From contig NZ_JAEMTA010000020.1 in NCBI RefSeq assembly GCF_016462545.1, positions 28,079 through 92,078 on the forward strand: a stretch of 64,000 nucleotides of DNA. Direction: 5' to 3'. Below are positions 6,502 through 14,718 of the stretch, piece after piece. Numbering within the stretch: the stretch's first letter is position 1; each line of letters starts with the position of its first letter. A program made the position numbers and the translations under genes. A model generated the notes under the pieces. It did no database searches. It saw nothing but the letters and a program-made list of their open reading frames with translations, and was not told the DNA's origin. This stretch comes from Mycolicibacterium sp. Lineage in GTDB: Bacteria > Actinomycetota > Actinomycetes > Mycobacteriales > Mycobacteriaceae.

Positions 6502-7878
6502 ATGCACGGCTGGCTGCCGTTGACGATTCAGGCCATCACCGTGGTCGTTCTCCTGGCCGCGATCGGCTGGCGCACCCGCCGCTGGCGGCTGGTGTGGCTG
6601 CCCGTGGCGCTGTTCGTCGGCGGTGCTTTGGCGGCAGCGTCCTACTGGTTCATCTCGTCGCAGGGCATGTCGGACGACCCAGCTCCGAATTTGCTGTGGG
6701 TTTGGCTCGTCGTCACCGGTGCCGCCGCGGTGGTGCTCGTCGCCGGCTGGCGCAACGCCCTCTGGTGGCGTCGGGCGGCCTCGGCCGCGGGACTGCCGCT
6801 GTGCCTGCTGTGCGCGGCGCTGGCGCTAAACCTCTGGGTCGGCTACTTCCCTACCGTCCAGACGGCGTGGAACCAACTCACCGAGGGGCCTCTGCCCGAC
6901 CAGACCGACCAGGCGACCGTCGTCGCCATGCAGACCAAACATCAGATCCCGGCCAGGGGCGTCGTGGTTCCGGTCAACATCGGCTCTGCCTCGTCGGGCT
7001 TCAAACACCGCGGCGAATTGGTCTACCTTCCGCCCGCCTGGTTCGCGACGAACCCGGCTCCGCACCTGCCGACGTTGATGATGATCGGCGGCGAGTTCAA
7101 CACCCCCGGTGACTGGCTGCGAGCCGGCAATGCAATCAAGACCGTCGACGACTTCGCGGCCGCCAATCGCGGCAACGCCCCCGTTCTCGTGTTCGTGGAC
7201 ACCGGTGGCGCGTTCAACAACGACACCGAATGCGTCAACGGGTCGCGCGGCAACTCCGCGGACCACCTCACCAAGGACGTGGTGCCGTTCATGGAGTCGA
7301 CGTATGGCGTGAGCGCCAACCGTGCCAACTGGGGCCTCGTCGGCTGGTCGATGGGAGGCACCTGCGCGGTGGATCTGGCGACCATGCATCCAGACATGTT
7401 CAGCACCTTCGAGGACATTGCCGGCGACCTGGCGCCCAACTCCGGAAACAAGCAGCAGACCATCGACCGGTTGTTCGGCGGCAACGCCGCGGCCTACGCC
7501 GCCTTCGACCCCACCACGGTCATCACCAGGCACGGCCCGTACACCGGGGTGTCCGGATGGTTCGACATCAACGGATCGGGGCCGACGAACGGCCCAACGG
7601 TGGTGAACGCGGTCAATGTCAACGGCACCGGACTGGGCGGCAAGGATGCCGCGGCCCACGTCAGCGATCAGGCGGCTGCGGCGAACTCACTGTGCGCCCT
7701 CGGCGCCGCCAACGGCATCAGCTGCGCAGTGGTGATGCAACCGGGCAAGCATGACTGGCCGTTCGCCGACCGCGCCTTCTCCGCCGCGCTGCCGTGGCTG
7801 GCAGGCCAGATCCACACACCCGGCATCCCGGTGCAGGCACTGCCGGGCCCGGCGCCGACGTTGTCGCACATTCAGTAG
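6502..7878 (+). CDS. Membrane-anchored esterase (PF00756-like / alpha-beta hydrolase)
   Basis: Four hydrophobic N-terminal segments; nucleophile elbow GWSMGGTCA; late ...QPGKHDWPFADRAF. Confidence 0.75.
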   Translation: MHGWLPLTIQAITVVVLLAAIGWRTRRWRLVWLPVALFVGGALAAASYWFISSQGMSDDPAPNLLWVWLVVTGAAAVVLVAGWRNALWWRRAASAAGLPLCLLCAALALNLWVGYFPTVQTAWNQLTEGPLPDQTDQATVVAMQTKHQIPARGVVVPVNIGSASSGFKHRGELVYLPPAWFATNPAPHLPTLMMIGGEFNTPGDWLRAGNAIKTVDDFAAANRGNAPVLVFVDTGGAFNNDTECVNGSRGNSADHLTKDVVPFMESTYGVSANRANWGLVGWSMGGTCAVDLATMHPDMFSTFEDIAGDLAPNSGNKQQTIDRLFGGNAAAYAAFDPTTVITRHGPYTGVSGWFDINGSGPTNGPTVVNAVNVNGTGLGGKDAAAHVSDQAAAANSLCALGAANGISCAVVMQPGKHDWPFADRAFSAALPWLAGQIHTPGIPVQALPGPAPTLSHIQ

Positions 7879-8966
7879 TCGGACTCGGCTGCGACCAGCT
7901 CGGCGAGGAACGCGTCGGGTCCGGGTTGGGCGAGCCGCGCCCTGGCGACGTCGCGGACGCGCTGCCGAAGCTCCGCGGCGGCACTGGAGTCGGCGGTCAC
8001 GGCGCGCTCGGGACCTATGGCCACGCTGGTCGCCGACCAGTCGTGATCCCACGCCTGGTTCTCACTCACCTCGCGGCCGTCCCCGTCCACCACCGTCACG
8101 GCGGCCGCTCCGTTCGCGTCGAGAGCACCTGTGCCGCTGAGCTTTCCGGAGCGCACCCTGACGTCGATGCCCCGGGCCGACGCCCGGCCGGTGAGCGCGA
8201 CACGCACCGTGACGATCACCGACGAGTCGGCGGTCTCGACCGACCAGTCGATCGTGCGGTCCGCCGCGTCGAACATCCCCTGCGGCACGGCCACCCAGTC
8301 GACGGACCCGGCGCCGCGGGCGATCGCGCCCTGCGCACGGTCGCCGTCTCGGCCCGCCGCCAGCGCGTAGTCGTCACGTCGCCCGCGCACCGAATCGCCT
8401 GTTGCTGCCGACGATTGCCCTGACCAGGCGCCGACCTCGTCGGCCAGATCGGCGCAGCGCGCCGCCAATTCGCTGACTCGCGAATCGTCCGCCGACCCGC
8501 TGGCAAGGAGCGCGGCGCGGTGCGGCGCGAGCAGTCCTCCGACGTCGGCGTCCAGCGCGTCGTCGGAGAAGAACTCCTGTGCCGCGCTCAGCAGAACCGC
8601 CAACTCGCCGTCGAGCAGCGCGCGGTCCAGTGGCACGATCCCGTCCCGGCGGCTCTCGGGCCACCACCGGCGAAGCCAGTGCCCGATGGCGAGCCGCCGC
8701 AACGGCTCCACGGCCTCGGGCAGCAACTCGACGTCGATCGGTGTGAGATCCGACGCAATCAGGGCGTGCGCCGCCGGCCCCACCACGCGCCACAGCCACT
8801 CTGCGGCATCGAGATTTGTGATGGTCATTCTGGTCGCAGCCACGCCGTCCGGATCGTCCACCGTCCATTCGAGTACCGCACCGCTGACGTCGAGCACCGC
8901 CACCGCGGGAGGCGCGGAGACGGCCGGCCCGACGACCCGCAGACCGGAGTCGGATACCAGCCTCAC
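7872..8966 (-). CDS. Hypothetical protein (partner of TPR-CHAT cassette)
   Basis: GTG start at 8966 overlaps the stop of the upstream gene (GTGA); VRLVSDSGLRVVGPAVSAPPAVAVLDVSGAVLEW... Confidence 0.7.
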   Translation of the reverse strand: MRLVSDSGLRVVGPAVSAPPAVAVLDVSGAVLEWTVDDPDGVAATRMTITNLDAAEWLWRVVGPAAHALIASDLTPIDVELLPEAVEPLRRLAIGHWLRRWWPESRRDGIVPLDRALLDGELAVLLSAAQEFFSDDALDADVGGLLAPHRAALLASGSADDSRVSELAARCADLADEVGAWSGQSSAATGDSVRGRRDDYALAAGRDGDRAQGAIARGAGSVDWVAVPQGMFDAADRTIDWSVETADSSVIVTVRVALTGRASARGIDVRVRSGKLSGTGALDANGAAAVTVVDGDGREVSENQAWDHDWSATSVAIGPERAVTADSSAAAELRQRVRDVARARLAQPGPDAFLAELVAAESDY

Positions 8967-10312
8967 CGGGCCACCTCGTACTCCTGAAGTTCCAACATCG
9001 ACTTGATGCGCTGGCGGTGGTCCAGGCTCACCGACCGCGCGACACCCTCGAGCAGCGACCGCAGATCGTCGACGTCGGCACACGGCTCCTGCCAGACGTC
9101 GCGGCCGTGTAGCCGGGCCCAGAGCCTTCGGAGATACGGGCGTGCGAAGGCGGACAGCTCATCGATCACCTGTCGCTGGCGGGGATGAACCGGTCCACCA
9201 TCGACGAGGTAGCGCCGCGCGTGTAGCACGTAGGCCTCCTTGCGCAGCCGGGCCTGGATGCCGCCCGACAGCGCGTAGCGGGTGGGCTTGGCATCGCTCA
9301 GCGGGTCGAGGTCGACCGCGACCTCGATGCCCGTGATCAATGCCGCCTGCTTGTCCTCGCCGAGCAGACCCCATGGCGCGCACGCCCGATCGACCTCTTC
9401 GGCACACAGCAGCGGAATCTCGGGAAGCTCGTCGCGGTCCAGGGCCCGACGCAACGTCGCATGCACGCGATCCACCACACTACGGTTCAGCGGAGGATCC
9501 CCGTCGACACTCCGCATCACGGGCGGCGGCGGTTGCGGGGCAACTGAACTCAGCCCGATGTCGACGATCGACCATGGGAGTTCGGCCCCGCCGACGCGGG
9601 CCTTGGCACCGAAGTTGTAGGGCGTCGCGTCCGCGACGAGAGCCGACCACACCCGCTGCCTGGCCATCGCGGCGTTGTGGCCCGCGTCGGCTCCGAGCAC
9701 CGTGGTGAGGCCGGCCAGAAATGGCCCGGCAATGGTGTCACCCGGCCCTACGTCGCGCCAGCTGCGCTCGAGCTGGCGGGACAGCCGAGCCACGACGTGC
9801 GCATCCCCCACGTAGCGGTTGAGCACCTCGATGCCGGTCCGGTCGCGGTCGTCGTGGACGCCACGCAGTACCGACTCGGCGGTGGCCCGGTCATCGGTGG
9901 CCGGTCGGCCTCGAGTGACCGCAAGCTCGAAGCACAGGGGAAAGTAGAGCTCCTGGGCGTTGCCAGACGTGATGCGCATGCGGCGGCGCTCGAGCTTCAA
10001 CACCGCGAACCACGCTGCAGCAGAGCGCAGTTGGGGTGCATGATCGAGAATCAAGTGTCGCATCGCGGTGCCCGTCTCCGATGTGACGACGGGCGCGGAG
10101 TACTGCGGGTTGGCGCGCAGCCGAAGTATCAGCGGGTCGAGAATCCGCTTGACGGTGCGGCGCAGCGGAGCGCCGTCGATGCCACTGAGGACCTCGACGC
10201 CCGGTCCGATCGCGCGCCACGCCTCGTCGATCACCATGCGTCGCGGCAGCACCGCACCCTCCCGCACTGCAGGGGTGCCGGCGTCGGTCACCAGGCGAGG
10301 AGCCGTGGTCAT
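8963..10312 (-). CDS. Hypothetical protein (partner of TPR-CHAT cassette)
   Basis: 449 aa ORF; TATTCT-6 nt-ATG upstream; MTTAPRLVTDAGTPAVREGAVLPRRMVIDEAW... Confidence 0.75.
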   Translation of the reverse strand: MTTAPRLVTDAGTPAVREGAVLPRRMVIDEAWRAIGPGVEVLSGIDGAPLRRTVKRILDPLILRLRANPQYSAPVVTSETGTAMRHLILDHAPQLRSAAAWFAVLKLERRRMRITSGNAQELYFPLCFELAVTRGRPATDDRATAESVLRGVHDDRDRTGIEVLNRYVGDAHVVARLSRQLERSWRDVGPGDTIAGPFLAGLTTVLGADAGHNAAMARQRVWSALVADATPYNFGAKARVGGAELPWSIVDIGLSSVAPQPPPPVMRSVDGDPPLNRSVVDRVHATLRRALDRDELPEIPLLCAEEVDRACAPWGLLGEDKQAALITGIEVAVDLDPLSDAKPTRYALSGGIQARLRKEAYVLHARRYLVDGGPVHPRQRQVIDELSAFARPYLRRLWARLHGRDVWQEPCADVDDLRSLLEGVARSVSLDHRQRIKSMLELQEYEVAR

Positions 10313-10395
10313 CCGCCCAGAATAGGCGGTACCTCGACGAATGCCGCATACGAAACTTGGGTTCGGTAGCAGAGTCCGGGTCGGATCCTGGTGGC

Positions 10396-11037
10396 ATGTC
10401 CGACGCCCTGGTGATCGCCCTCGTGTTCCTCCTCTCCGTTGCGATCGGCGCAGTGCTGTGCGCTCACCTGTCGCATGTCACCCGCGCGCCGTCCGAACTA
10501 CTTCCGGTCCGCAAGGCGACAGGGGTGGGCATTGGCACCGTGCGCGCCGTCGATGGGTTGATCACCGTCGACGTGGAGAGCGTCTCGGGACAACACTTCG
10601 AAGGACGCCTGCATCGACGGGACGACGACGGGTCGCTCGGCGGATTGCAGCCCGGTGTCCTGCTGTTGGTCACTTTCGATCCGGCTATGCGCGAACGACT
10701 TTCGCTCGCAGACGACATGGCGGCGGTGCGAGCGGCCTTCGACCGGATGCTCGTGCGCAAGGGCCTGGTGACACCGGCACAGGTAGACCTGATCAGGAAT
10801 GGCATCAAGTCCCGTGGTGTCGTGACTGCGATGAGGACGACGGGCGTAGCTCGCGAGGACTACCGCGAGATCGAACTCGACCTGATGGTCCGCAGGCCAG
10901 CGGGCGGGCAGTTTCCCGCGCACGAGACCACGCTGATACCCGAGTCGGCACTCGCCAGGGTCGCGCCGGGTTCGGTGGTCGACGCCTATTACGCAGACGA
11001 CGAATCCGTCGTCACCGTGTCGGTACCGCCCGGCTGA
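10396..11037 (+). CDS. Single-TM membrane-anchored hypothetical protein
   Basis: MSDALVIALVFLLSVAIGAVLCAHLSHV... one N-terminal TM, then soluble domain; opposite strand between cassette genes. Confidence 0.65.
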   Translation: MSDALVIALVFLLSVAIGAVLCAHLSHVTRAPSELLPVRKATGVGIGTVRAVDGLITVDVESVSGQHFEGRLHRRDDDGSLGGLQPGVLLLVTFDPAMRERLSLADDMAAVRAAFDRMLVRKGLVTPAQVDLIRNGIKSRGVVTAMRTTGVAREDYREIELDLMVRRPAGGQFPAHETTLIPESALARVAPGSVVDAYYADDESVVTVSVPPG

Positions 11038-11041
11038 ACCC

Positions 11042-12271
11042 TCACCGCGCACCGTCGACGGCAAACGTGACCAGCGCCGCCCAGTACAGCGGATGTGCGC
11101 TCGCGTCACCGGAACGCCACTGCCGCATACGGTTGCGCTGCCATCGATTCACCGCGCGGCCGCCCTCGTCCTCGTCGTGTGCGTCGTCCACGGCGACCAC
11201 GAGCTCGGCCATGGGATCCTCTGCTCCACCGGTGAACTGCCGATAACCGGCCGTCGTCGGCAGCGACCACAGTGTCGCCGTCACCAGTTGGGCGCCGCAG
11301 AGGACCATCGCGGCGACCAATCCCGTCGCCTCGTCGAACCGGTAGTCGCCACCGGACGCGCATGCGATGAGTGCCACCCGCGGCGGCATCGACATTCGTC
11401 GGGACATGATGGTCGCCGCGGTGAGCGGAGCCTCCTCCGCCAGATGCAACGCCGCCTGGTCGGCACGGCCCGACTGATCCTCGGCGGCGCTCGCGTGACC
11501 GACGTAGAGGAGCCGACGAGGTTCCTCGGTCAACATCGCGACGAGCCATTCCCGGTCGGCGTCCGTGCGCCGGAACAGTTCAGCCGTCGCGGACACCCTG
11601 GGCAGCACCTGTCGCGAGGTGACGTCTTCGGCGAAGTGCCGAGCCACCCGCGTGTCGGGTGACGGTCGACCGAGGACCGAGCCCAGCGCCGAGTCGGCAC
11701 GTTGCCCTGGCACTCGCGGGTCGAGGATCACCAGCGGCAGGCGGTGACGCCGCTCGGCCCATGTCGTGCGCGGCCGCCGCGCGTTGACGATGTTGGGCGG
11801 AATGGCCAACAACACGTCCACCAGTTCCATCAGCCGATACGACTCCGTCTCGGAGTCGACGGGCAGCGCGAGCAGGCCCCACGGCACGCGCCCCAATCTC
11901 GCGCTGGGCGAGATGAACAGGACGGGCCGCGGCGCGGACACGCCGTCGGACAGGAGGCGCCATGCGGCATCGGAGAGCAGCGCCGCCCCGAGCCGTCTGG
12001 CCAATGCCATCTCGGTGTCCCGGGTCGCGAAGGGCCCCTGCGTGAGGGCTCTGGCGACGGCGTCGGCGATGGACTCACCCCCGGTCGGTTCGGGGAGCGC
12101 GACCGCGAGTTCGTCGAGGCATTCGCGGATCTGCGGTGCCTGCACCACCCAGGTCACCGTTCGGGACGGGTCCCCCACCACCCGCAGGCTGGCGTAGGTG
12201 GCCACCCCGACGTCCGCGAAGCGCAGTACGAGAGTGCGAGAAGTCAGGACCCCTTCTCCCATGTCTCCCAT
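11042..12271 (-). CDS. CHAT-domain (caspase-like) protease
   Basis: CHAT His/Cys motifs: RRLLYVGHASA and PPRVALIACASGGDYRFDEATGLVAAMVLCGAQLVTATLWSLP. Confidence 0.85.
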   Translation of the reverse strand: MGDMGEGVLTSRTLVLRFADVGVATYASLRVVGDPSRTVTWVVQAPQIRECLDELAVALPEPTGGESIADAVARALTQGPFATRDTEMALARRLGAALLSDAAWRLLSDGVSAPRPVLFISPSARLGRVPWGLLALPVDSETESYRLMELVDVLLAIPPNIVNARRPRTTWAERRHRLPLVILDPRVPGQRADSALGSVLGRPSPDTRVARHFAEDVTSRQVLPRVSATAELFRRTDADREWLVAMLTEEPRRLLYVGHASAAEDQSGRADQAALHLAEEAPLTAATIMSRRMSMPPRVALIACASGGDYRFDEATGLVAAMVLCGAQLVTATLWSLPTTAGYRQFTGGAEDPMAELVVAVDDAHDEDEGGRAVNRWQRNRMRQWRSGDASAHPLYWAALVTFAVDGAR

Positions 12272-13983
12272 ATCGATTCAGCCGCGGTGACACACTGCCC
12301 GTAACGCTGCGACGCCAGCTCACGGTAGCGATCGAGCACCGGGCCCGTGGTCGGATCCATCCGCAGCGGAGGCAGCGGGCCCAGCCGCGTGAGTCCGGTG
12401 CCGTCGGTGATCGGCGGTCCTGCGGCGACCAGGGCCAGCTCATCGACGTCGGTGATCGGGGCGGCCGCCGTGGAGACACTCGACCACTCGGTCGATCCGC
12501 CCTCGACTCTCTCGGCATTGAATGTGCCACGTGCGCTGTGGTATTCGACCAACTGACTGACCAGATCCGCGTTCTCCCACTCCAAGCAGACGGCGAAGGC
12601 GCCGGCCAGCATCGGCGCCGACACGCACCTCGCCCACTGCGCACGCGCCTCGGCGTCGGCAACCGAGTACCGCACCGAATCGACGGCCAGGGACGCGGGA
12701 ACCTTCAGTTCGGCGGCGCGTTCCAGCTTCTCCATCGCTTCTGCGAACTTCGCGGTGCCGGGTTCGGGACTCATCGCCCCCGAACCCGAGCGGTAGCTCT
12801 CCTCCACAGCTTCCCAGTCCGCGTCGGGATCACCTGCGCCGTCGAAGCCCAGATCGGCCAGCGCCTCGGCCCGCCACACGTTGCCGAGGTGATCGTCGAG
12901 CCTGGCATAGGCCAACCAGCTGCTGCGGGGCGAGGAGTCCAGACATGCGCGTGCCTGCGCCACCATGTCGACGGCCTCGGCGTAGCGGCCGCGAAAGATC
13001 GCGATCCAGCTGCGCTGCAAAAGAATTCGGTGGATGTGCAACGGTTTGCCGAGCTCACGCCAATGACGCTCGGCGTGCTCCCAGCACTCGTCGGCGACCT
13101 TGAGGCCACCCGCGGACATTCTGGTCAGTCCGAAGAACAGCCAGCACCGCGAGACGTCGTTGGCGCGGGCGTAGCGCGCGATCACCGGGTAGGCCTCGTA
13201 CATGAGGGCCTCGGTAGCCACTCGGTCGCCTGCGGACCAACTCGCCGCGCCGCGTTCCAATCGAGCTCGCGCCGTGGCCAGTTCCCACCCACGCGCCTCC
13301 GCCCGGGCCTCGGCACGTCGCAACCACGGGGTGGCCTGGTCGAGCCTGCCGGTCTCGATGCAAAACCTGGCGTAGCCGATGCTGCCGAGCACCCGCAGAT
13401 TGTCGGCCGATTCGTCACCGGTCGAGGACGTTTCGATGTGGCGGATGACGTTGTCCCACAACGAGACCGACCGCACGTGCAGGTCGTCGTCGCACAAACC
13501 CTCCGCGCAGACGATGCGAGCATAGATCGACAGATACGTGTGTTCCTCGGCGAGATCCGCGAACTCTTCGTCGTCGTCGTCCAGCGCGGCGAGTGCTATC
13601 GCGGCCCCTTCGTGGTCGCCGATGGCGGCAGCCAAGCCGATCTCCAGGAAGCCGGCCCGTCGTCGGTAACGGCACACCAGATGACGCACCTCGTCGGTCG
13701 TCATCGTGCACTGTCCGAGCACCTCCGGCGCCGCGGTGCCCGCGAGGATCGACGAGTAGATGGCAAGGCACTCCCCCATCCGACGAGACGCCTCCCGCAC
13801 CCCGTCGTAGGCCGTCCTCACCAGGTAGAGCTCACCGAGCTGGGCCAAGGCCTCGAGCATCCAGCCGTCCCGGTCGGCCGCCTCGATCTGCGGCATCAGC
13901 GACAGCAGCAGCTCCTTGGCCGCCGTCTCGTCGGAGGCCAGAGCCAGGTGACGGGCCCGCTCCAGCTCCCCGGGGATCGACAC
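12244..13983 (-). CDS. TPR-like helical repeat protein coupled to CHAT protease
   Basis: 579 aa alpha-helical repeat pattern (e.g. SIGYARFCIETGRLDQATPWLRRAEARAEARGWELATARARLERG); overlaps the CHAT start by 28 nt; TATGAT-6 nt-GTG. Confidence 0.75.
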   Translation of the reverse strand: MSIPGELERARHLALASDETAAKELLLSLMPQIEAADRDGWMLEALAQLGELYLVRTAYDGVREASRRMGECLAIYSSILAGTAAPEVLGQCTMTTDEVRHLVCRYRRRAGFLEIGLAAAIGDHEGAAIALAALDDDDEEFADLAEEHTYLSIYARIVCAEGLCDDDLHVRSVSLWDNVIRHIETSSTGDESADNLRVLGSIGYARFCIETGRLDQATPWLRRAEARAEARGWELATARARLERGAASWSAGDRVATEALMYEAYPVIARYARANDVSRCWLFFGLTRMSAGGLKVADECWEHAERHWRELGKPLHIHRILLQRSWIAIFRGRYAEAVDMVAQARACLDSSPRSSWLAYARLDDHLGNVWRAEALADLGFDGAGDPDADWEAVEESYRSGSGAMSPEPGTAKFAEAMEKLERAAELKVPASLAVDSVRYSVADAEARAQWARCVSAPMLAGAFAVCLEWENADLVSQLVEYHSARGTFNAERVEGGSTEWSSVSTAAAPITDVDELALVAAGPPITDGTGLTRLGPLPPLRMDPTTGPVLDRYRELASQRYGQCVTAAESIWETWEKGS

Positions 13984-14084: not shown

Positions 14085-14582
14085 TCAGTTGCAGGTCACC
14101 TTGATCTCGAACTTCTTCGTGATCATTCCGGCCATCGGGTTCTTCATGTCGGCACCCTGCGCCTCACCGGTGATGGTGTAGGTGCTGCCGTCGACCGCCA
14201 CGTCCGCCGAGCCGGACTTCATCCCACCCATCTGGGCCACGGCCAGCGCGTTGCCGTCGACGACCAGGCCCAGGGACTCCACCGCCGGCGGTGTTGCGTC
14301 GCTCATCACCACCGCGACGCCCTGCTGCCCGCCGACGGCTCCGCTGGCCACGTTGATCTTGCCGCCGGCCTTCACGCAGGTGACGGAGTTGAGGTCCAGG
14401 CCCGCCAGATCCTGACCCTCGACCTTGACCTGGGTGTTGCCGCTGGTGCTGACCTGTGTGCTGCTGCTGCCGCCGGCAGCAGGTGTGCTGGACCCCGGCG
14501 TCGAGCCCTTGTCATCAGAGCAGCCCACCAGAACCAGGGCGGCCGCCGCGATGCCGATACCCGCCGTCACGATCTTCTTCAT
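14085..14582 (-). CDS. LpqH (19 kDa antigen)-like lipoprotein
   Basis: MKKIVTAGIGIAAAALVLVGCSDDKGS (lipobox LVGC), ...VKVEGQDLAGLDLNSVTCVKAGGKINVASG...KKFEIKVTCN. Confidence 0.85.
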   Translation of the reverse strand: MKKIVTAGIGIAAAALVLVGCSDDKGSTPGSSTPAAGGSSSTQVSTSGNTQVKVEGQDLAGLDLNSVTCVKAGGKINVASGAVGGQQGVAVVMSDATPPAVESLGLVVDGNALAVAQMGGMKSGSADVAVDGSTYTITGEAQGADMKNPMAGMITKKFEIKVTCN

Positions 14583-14718
14583 TTCTTCGGTTCCCTTCGT
14601 TCGCAACGCCGGAGATGACGTCGTCGTGAGGCAAGTACACGAGGGGTGCGGCGCTACCGATCCCAACTTCTGGGTCGATGCGCGCTCGGCGGGCCGGACG
14701 CGTGACGGCTCGGCCAGA

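Follow-up and report, generated by a model that had tools for sequence, protein, structure and literature searches.

Known roles of CHAT proteases include that of an immune effector and, in one CRISPR subtype, control over a sigma factor. A 64,000-nt stretch of Mycolicibacterium DNA (contig NZ_JAEMTA010000020.1; hereafter the window, meaning the whole stretch analysed) raises the question of what such proteases control when they are paired with a TPR protein outside CRISPR. The CHAT and TPR genes of the window lie in a cassette of six, together with X and Y, whose products match nothing known, a gene for a protein with one transmembrane (TM) segment, hereafter the TM gene, and a gene for a 19-kDa lipoprotein (Table 1). 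Sequence comparison suggests that the cassette is a protease-linked gene-control system, so far undescribed, and not a simple defence toxin, because its genes are co-inherited and a matching promoter element is almost confined to the genomes bearing them. The chance that it is a protease-gated gene-control switch may be put at about one half (0.5).

A first-pass annotation of the window had proposed a five-gene cassette encoding an undescribed TPR plus CHAT protease-effector system. The cassette is indeed a co-occurring and undescribed unit; it numbers six genes, the lipoprotein gene having been overlooked, and a role in transcription control is preferred to that of a stand-alone effector because a repeated 14-bp element, also overlooked, links the cassette to dispersed genes for secreted and membrane proteins. 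All open reading frame (ORF) limits given earlier, the overlap of the TPR and CHAT genes, the GTGA coupling of Y to X, the TM gene on the opposite strand and the catalytic motifs read in the protease (YVGHAS for His, IACASGG for Cys) stand as described.

Table 1. Genes of the cassette and copies of the promoter element in the window
Feature	Position	Strand	Remarks
X	7872..8966	-	364 residues, acidic (pI 4.5), alpha/beta; core gene; GTGA overlap with Y
Y	8963..10312	-	449 residues, all-helical; core gene; no family match
Promoter element	10357..10370	+	TTGGGTTCGGTAGC; -10-like GATCCT at 10384-10389; ATG of the TM gene 25 nt after the element
TM gene	10396..11037	+	213 residues from ATG 10396; one N-terminal TM segment
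CHAT caspase-like protease	11042..12271	-	409 residues; dyad His259/Cys304; Pfam PF12770, E=4.4e-15
TPR-like sensor/scaffold	12244..13983	-	579 residues; overlaps CHAT by 28 nt
19-kDa (LpqH-family) lipoprotein	14085..14582	-	PF05481, Pfam 2.8e-30
Promoter element	14653..14666	-	TTGGGATCGGTAGC; -10-like TGTACTT at 14639-14633; predicted to serve 19-kDa-TPR-CHAT, ATG 14582

Gene content was monitored in mycobacteria in the 80 best loci found through Y alone, all from Mycobacteriaceae and several ending at contig ends. X accompanies Y in 80 loci, CHAT in 79, TPR in 77, the TM gene in 76 and the 19-kDa gene in 71, in a single order. Y and X overlap by 4 nt (NTGA) in 80/80 loci, by ATGA in 67 and by GTGA in 13, and 125/125 complete CHAT homologues retain both His259 and Cys304. 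With an invariant dyad, a constant overlap and a fixed order in mycobacterial loci, the arrangement is not due to chance; co-occurrence of the genes and conservation of the dyad in orthologs, on which the first-pass annotation had staked its proposal, were both found. Class-wide scans of 395 genomes detected Y in 35 and X in 36, essentially the same genomes. Other families and Streptomyces megaplasmids carry a straight operon Y-X-TPR-CHAT, and TPR and CHAT are one ORF in L180 and L181, both from other families. Across 111 loci the four proteins show correlated distances (0.86-0.92); in mycobacteria with the cassette at the lysX site they also track those of LysX and UvrA, the four proteins evolving faster. 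Y is present in 128/199 Mycobacterium genomes and some copies are broken, so the cassette is dispensable and seems to have been lost more than once. By these comparisons Y and X are the core partners of the protease, the TM and 19-kDa genes being tied in via the shared promoter element.

The element TTGGGWTCGGTAGC is found exactly twice in the window. When up to one mismatch was allowed, the 80 loci (1.53 Mb) gave 147 copies, 76 in the CHAT-Y interval facing the TM gene, 71 before the 19-kDa gene and 0 elsewhere (five of the 71 were labelled 'else' by the script, their coordinates placing them at the same spot upstream of TPR). The 19-kDa gene, whose start was corrected to ATG 14582, precedes TPR, shares its strand and heads the TPR-CHAT operon. 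Outside mycobacteria (Nocardia, Rhodococcus-like genera, other families and Streptomyces plasmids) a copy reading CTGGGATCGGTAGG or closely similar is located just upstream of Y; it faces away from Y, towards a gene of the 19-kDa lipoprotein type or of the TM/OB type. At 67 sites outside the cassette, taken from 14 hand-chosen genomes, the element is followed by a 13-nt spacer and a T-rich -10-like box (T27 76%, A30 67%, T32 85%), and TGTACTT is nearly invariant in the 19-kDa promoters. Start codons cluster at +25/26, where transcription is expected to start and the mRNA is predicted to be leaderless, or at +66-76. The start codon of the TM gene coincides with the predicted transcription start, and this gene is likewise predicted to be leaderless. 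The element is thus predicted to be a two-part promoter, made up by a long motif and a -10-like box. PafBC-type promoters of mycobacteria have a long element upstream of the -10 box and no classical -35. The cassette element resembles them in layout; its sequence is different, and X and Y give no WYL or HTH match. A literature search on the element and on mycobacterial CHAT proteins returned nothing relevant.

Further variation was observed. In L174-L177 (family f22) the core genes lack the element, and another well conserved stretch, GGAAGTACTCTTCTCCCCATGG, precedes the divergent gene. Two more elements facing apart were found on a Streptomyces megaplasmid (L193:15744 and 16069), at least one of which lies before a gene related (MGVFDRRRRSREEK...) to the element-driven gene adjoining Y in L192.

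Copies of the element are dispersed in genomes with the cassette. The genome of the window has five exact copies, and the three outside the cassette each lie 57-72 nt before a small ORF. Among 61 Mycobacterium genomes the element was found in 44/44 of those with Y, and was missing in 14/17 of those without; copies number 233 in the former (about 5.3 each) and 3 in the latter, while the reversed pattern, used as a control, occurs 12 times across all 61. Outside Mycobacterium the exact element is present in 34/41 genomes with core loci and in 2/27 without, the core-locus genomes lacking it being four of f22, one of g24, one of g9 and the variant G472. An ORF starts downstream of the element at 59/67 sites, compared with 30/67 in the opposite direction, ORF calls being approximate in GC-rich DNA. 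The 59 products, named by eye, include a secreted WCPG...WDxNVCH family, 2-TM and GGPSTRSV families, lipoproteins, PE-like proteins and relatives of the TM gene product; 34/59 have a hydrophobic N-terminus, versus 83/335 control ORFs. Two of these satellite families were monitored across genomes. The 2-TM family was detected in 15/23 genomes with Y and in 0/22 without, plus one weak fragment; for the GGPS family the figures are 8/23 and 0/22, respectively. As far as genome comparison can tell, the element and both satellite families depend on the presence of the cassette, and the dispersed genes are predicted to form the regulon of the element, mostly coding for small secreted or membrane proteins. 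The regulon would provide the first functional context for several uncharacterised secreted-protein families. Small secreted WCPG/WDxNVCH proteins behind the element are diverse (L199, L244-L246, L277-L288), at least six residing in genome G646.

In the mechanism which may account for these data, Y and X would be a DNA-reading regulator with an acidic partner. The TPR protein would sense a cue, for which the envelope is the likeliest place, and let CHAT cut X or Y, and the cut would switch the regulon on or off. Feedback would arise in mycobacteria, because TPR-CHAT itself sits there behind the element. In its widest form, in which TPR-CHAT gates a regulator of a new type (Y-X) reading a new class of promoters and thereby controls scattered secreted and membrane genes, some of them cassette-dependent, the proposal of an undescribed actinobacterial signalling system is a tentative one, falling somewhat short of even odds.

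The closest known counterpart is the type III-E CRISPR system, in which the TPR-CHAT protease Csx29 (Craspase) cuts Csx30, the inhibitor of a sigma factor (CASP-sigma) whose motif occurs both within the system's own locus and at other genomic sites (PMC10028731). Shared features are TPR and CHAT, partner genes, and a promoter motif at the locus and elsewhere (PMC10028731). In contrast to type III-E, TPR and CHAT are mostly separate genes in the cassette, overlapping in the window and fused in the two loci named above. No Cas7-11/gRAMP or crRNA gene was found in the cassette or among conserved neighbours, CRISPR arrays not having been searched for separately; X and Y match neither Csx30 nor Csx31 nor any other family, and no ECF or other sigma gene is among the conserved genes. 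Lacking Cas7-11, Csx30 and the sigma gene, the cassette is not a member of type III-E, and by analogy works at most like Csx29-Csx30-sigma. The earlier remark that the locus has no Cas or gasdermin gene agrees with the lack of Pfam or PADLOC matches to either in the partner genes. Caspase-linked ternary systems (VMAP, iSTAND, CATRA) are alike in combining a caspase-like protease with conserved partners, whereas the MoxR, vWA and STAND components of VMAP/iSTAND are not among the conserved operon genes of the cassette. The cassette is a CRISPR-free and widespread actinobacterial case of TPR-CHAT, to which sequence evidence attaches a specific promoter and gene set, and it places two novel protein families beside the protease; what TPR-CHAT proteases control outside CRISPR becomes directly testable.

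X, Y and the TM protein match no known family by Pfam, NCBIfam, PADLOC or PDB sequence profiles. The AlphaFold model of X (mean pLDDT 86.5) has an N-terminal strand/helix part and a beta-rich C-terminal part, that of Y (mean pLDDT 81.6) is helical throughout, and neither model matches the PDB at E<0.1. X is acidic family-wide (pI 4.3-4.9).

Several observations speak against Y-X as the regulator. Domain and fold searches with Y and X bring up neither a DNA-binding nor a sigma domain, and Y as a sigma factor finds no support. The pI of Y is 8.9 in the window, and the family median of 6.7 contradicts the notion of a generally basic protein. The four f22 genomes have the core operon and lack the element, and Y-X themselves are not downstream of it. 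The association of element and Y in Mycobacterium (Fisher 3e-11) overstates independence, because the genomes are related. The protease is tied to the regulon by co-occurrence alone, so that the switch is a putative one, and the reader of the element may be encoded elsewhere and have been lost together with the cassette. The lack of a recognisable DNA-binding domain, the position of Y-X and the f22 genomes are all accommodated if the element is read by a separate transcription or sigma factor that comes and goes with the cassette; the cassette would then be just one target of that factor and have another job. This account is unlikely, as Y adjoins the element in nearly all lineages having it, Streptomyces megaplasmids included, the element disappears together with Y, and the loci show no linked regulator gene.

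Still less probable is a conflict system, in which TPR would sense phage or damage and the CHAT effector would cut X, Y or host proteins to stop growth, the regulon being secondary. CHAT/TPR and caspase-like proteases frequently belong to such systems (PMC7159879, PMC10028731), and both the patchy presence with broken copies and the fast evolution relative to UvrA/LysX would fit. The genomic setting does not. Each genome has one cassette copy, located at one of few stable chromosomal sites. The loci closest to that of the window are from Mycolicibacterium hodleri and other mycobacteria. The window cassette sits between lysX, with a neighbouring esterase gene, and uvrA, a site holding 45/94 cassette loci. 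The two genes lie close together without the cassette in Mycobacterium L187 and L189, which are cassette-free, and L190, which has it elsewhere. Many of the remaining loci have a common second neighbourhood including dnaX (named by sequence inspection), and in another genus the cassette adjoins nuo genes. Such contexts do not look like a defence island. Plasmid copies were found solely on Streptomyces megaplasmids and on one Nocardia replicon labelled plasmid. Mobility was considered and rejected, searches for phage and viral-contig copies having found none, and PADLOC gives no match for the cassette. Moreover, a suicide protease would not need a dispersed regulon of secreted and membrane proteins.

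An envelope quality-control or maturation protease, with CHAT processing regulon products and the element merely co-expressing enzyme and substrates, would suit the excess of hydrophobic N-termini and the linkage of the 19-kDa and TM genes, but is the most doubtful reading, because neither a signal peptide nor a TM segment is visible in CHAT or TPR, so that they would reach exported proteins before export only, and because Y and X are left unexplained.

The protease belongs to the CHAT family PF12770 by profile match and His/Cys dyad, and forms a distinct actinobacterial lineage compared with PF12770 generally; at least one member, the L180 CHAT, is found by the cassette CHAT profile and missed by the Pfam model. 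Repeats in the TPR protein give a weak Pfam match (E=0.015), while the profile of its family matches kinesin-light-chain TPRs at 8e-8. The TM protein has a duplicated OB-like region beside the TM segment, the fold being assigned by eye.

Variant loci were also noticed. A divergent second kind, type B (L049, L050, L052, L053, L057, L058), has a CHAT protein about 30-35% identical, accompanied by two ORFs of about 450-570 residues that show no detectable relationship to X and Y; hhalign gives no support to the companion genes of L050, L052, L053, L057 and L058 as X/Y homologues. TPR proteins, ThiF-like and PaaK-like genes and an OmpA-type lipoprotein gene reside near type B CHAT. In one g11 genome a DUF222-HNH endonuclease-type ORF lies between CHAT and the TM gene (L041:7793-9103). 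In another family (L186:3827-10871) a Ser/Thr kinase-TPR protein is encoded divergently from CHAT, followed by homologues of Y and X (hhalign, 93% and 99%, respectively), with no promoter element. A second CHAT-domain gene is present in the genome of the window itself, on a contig other than that of the cassette (G000:C36:13510-13911, Pfam 1.8e-10).
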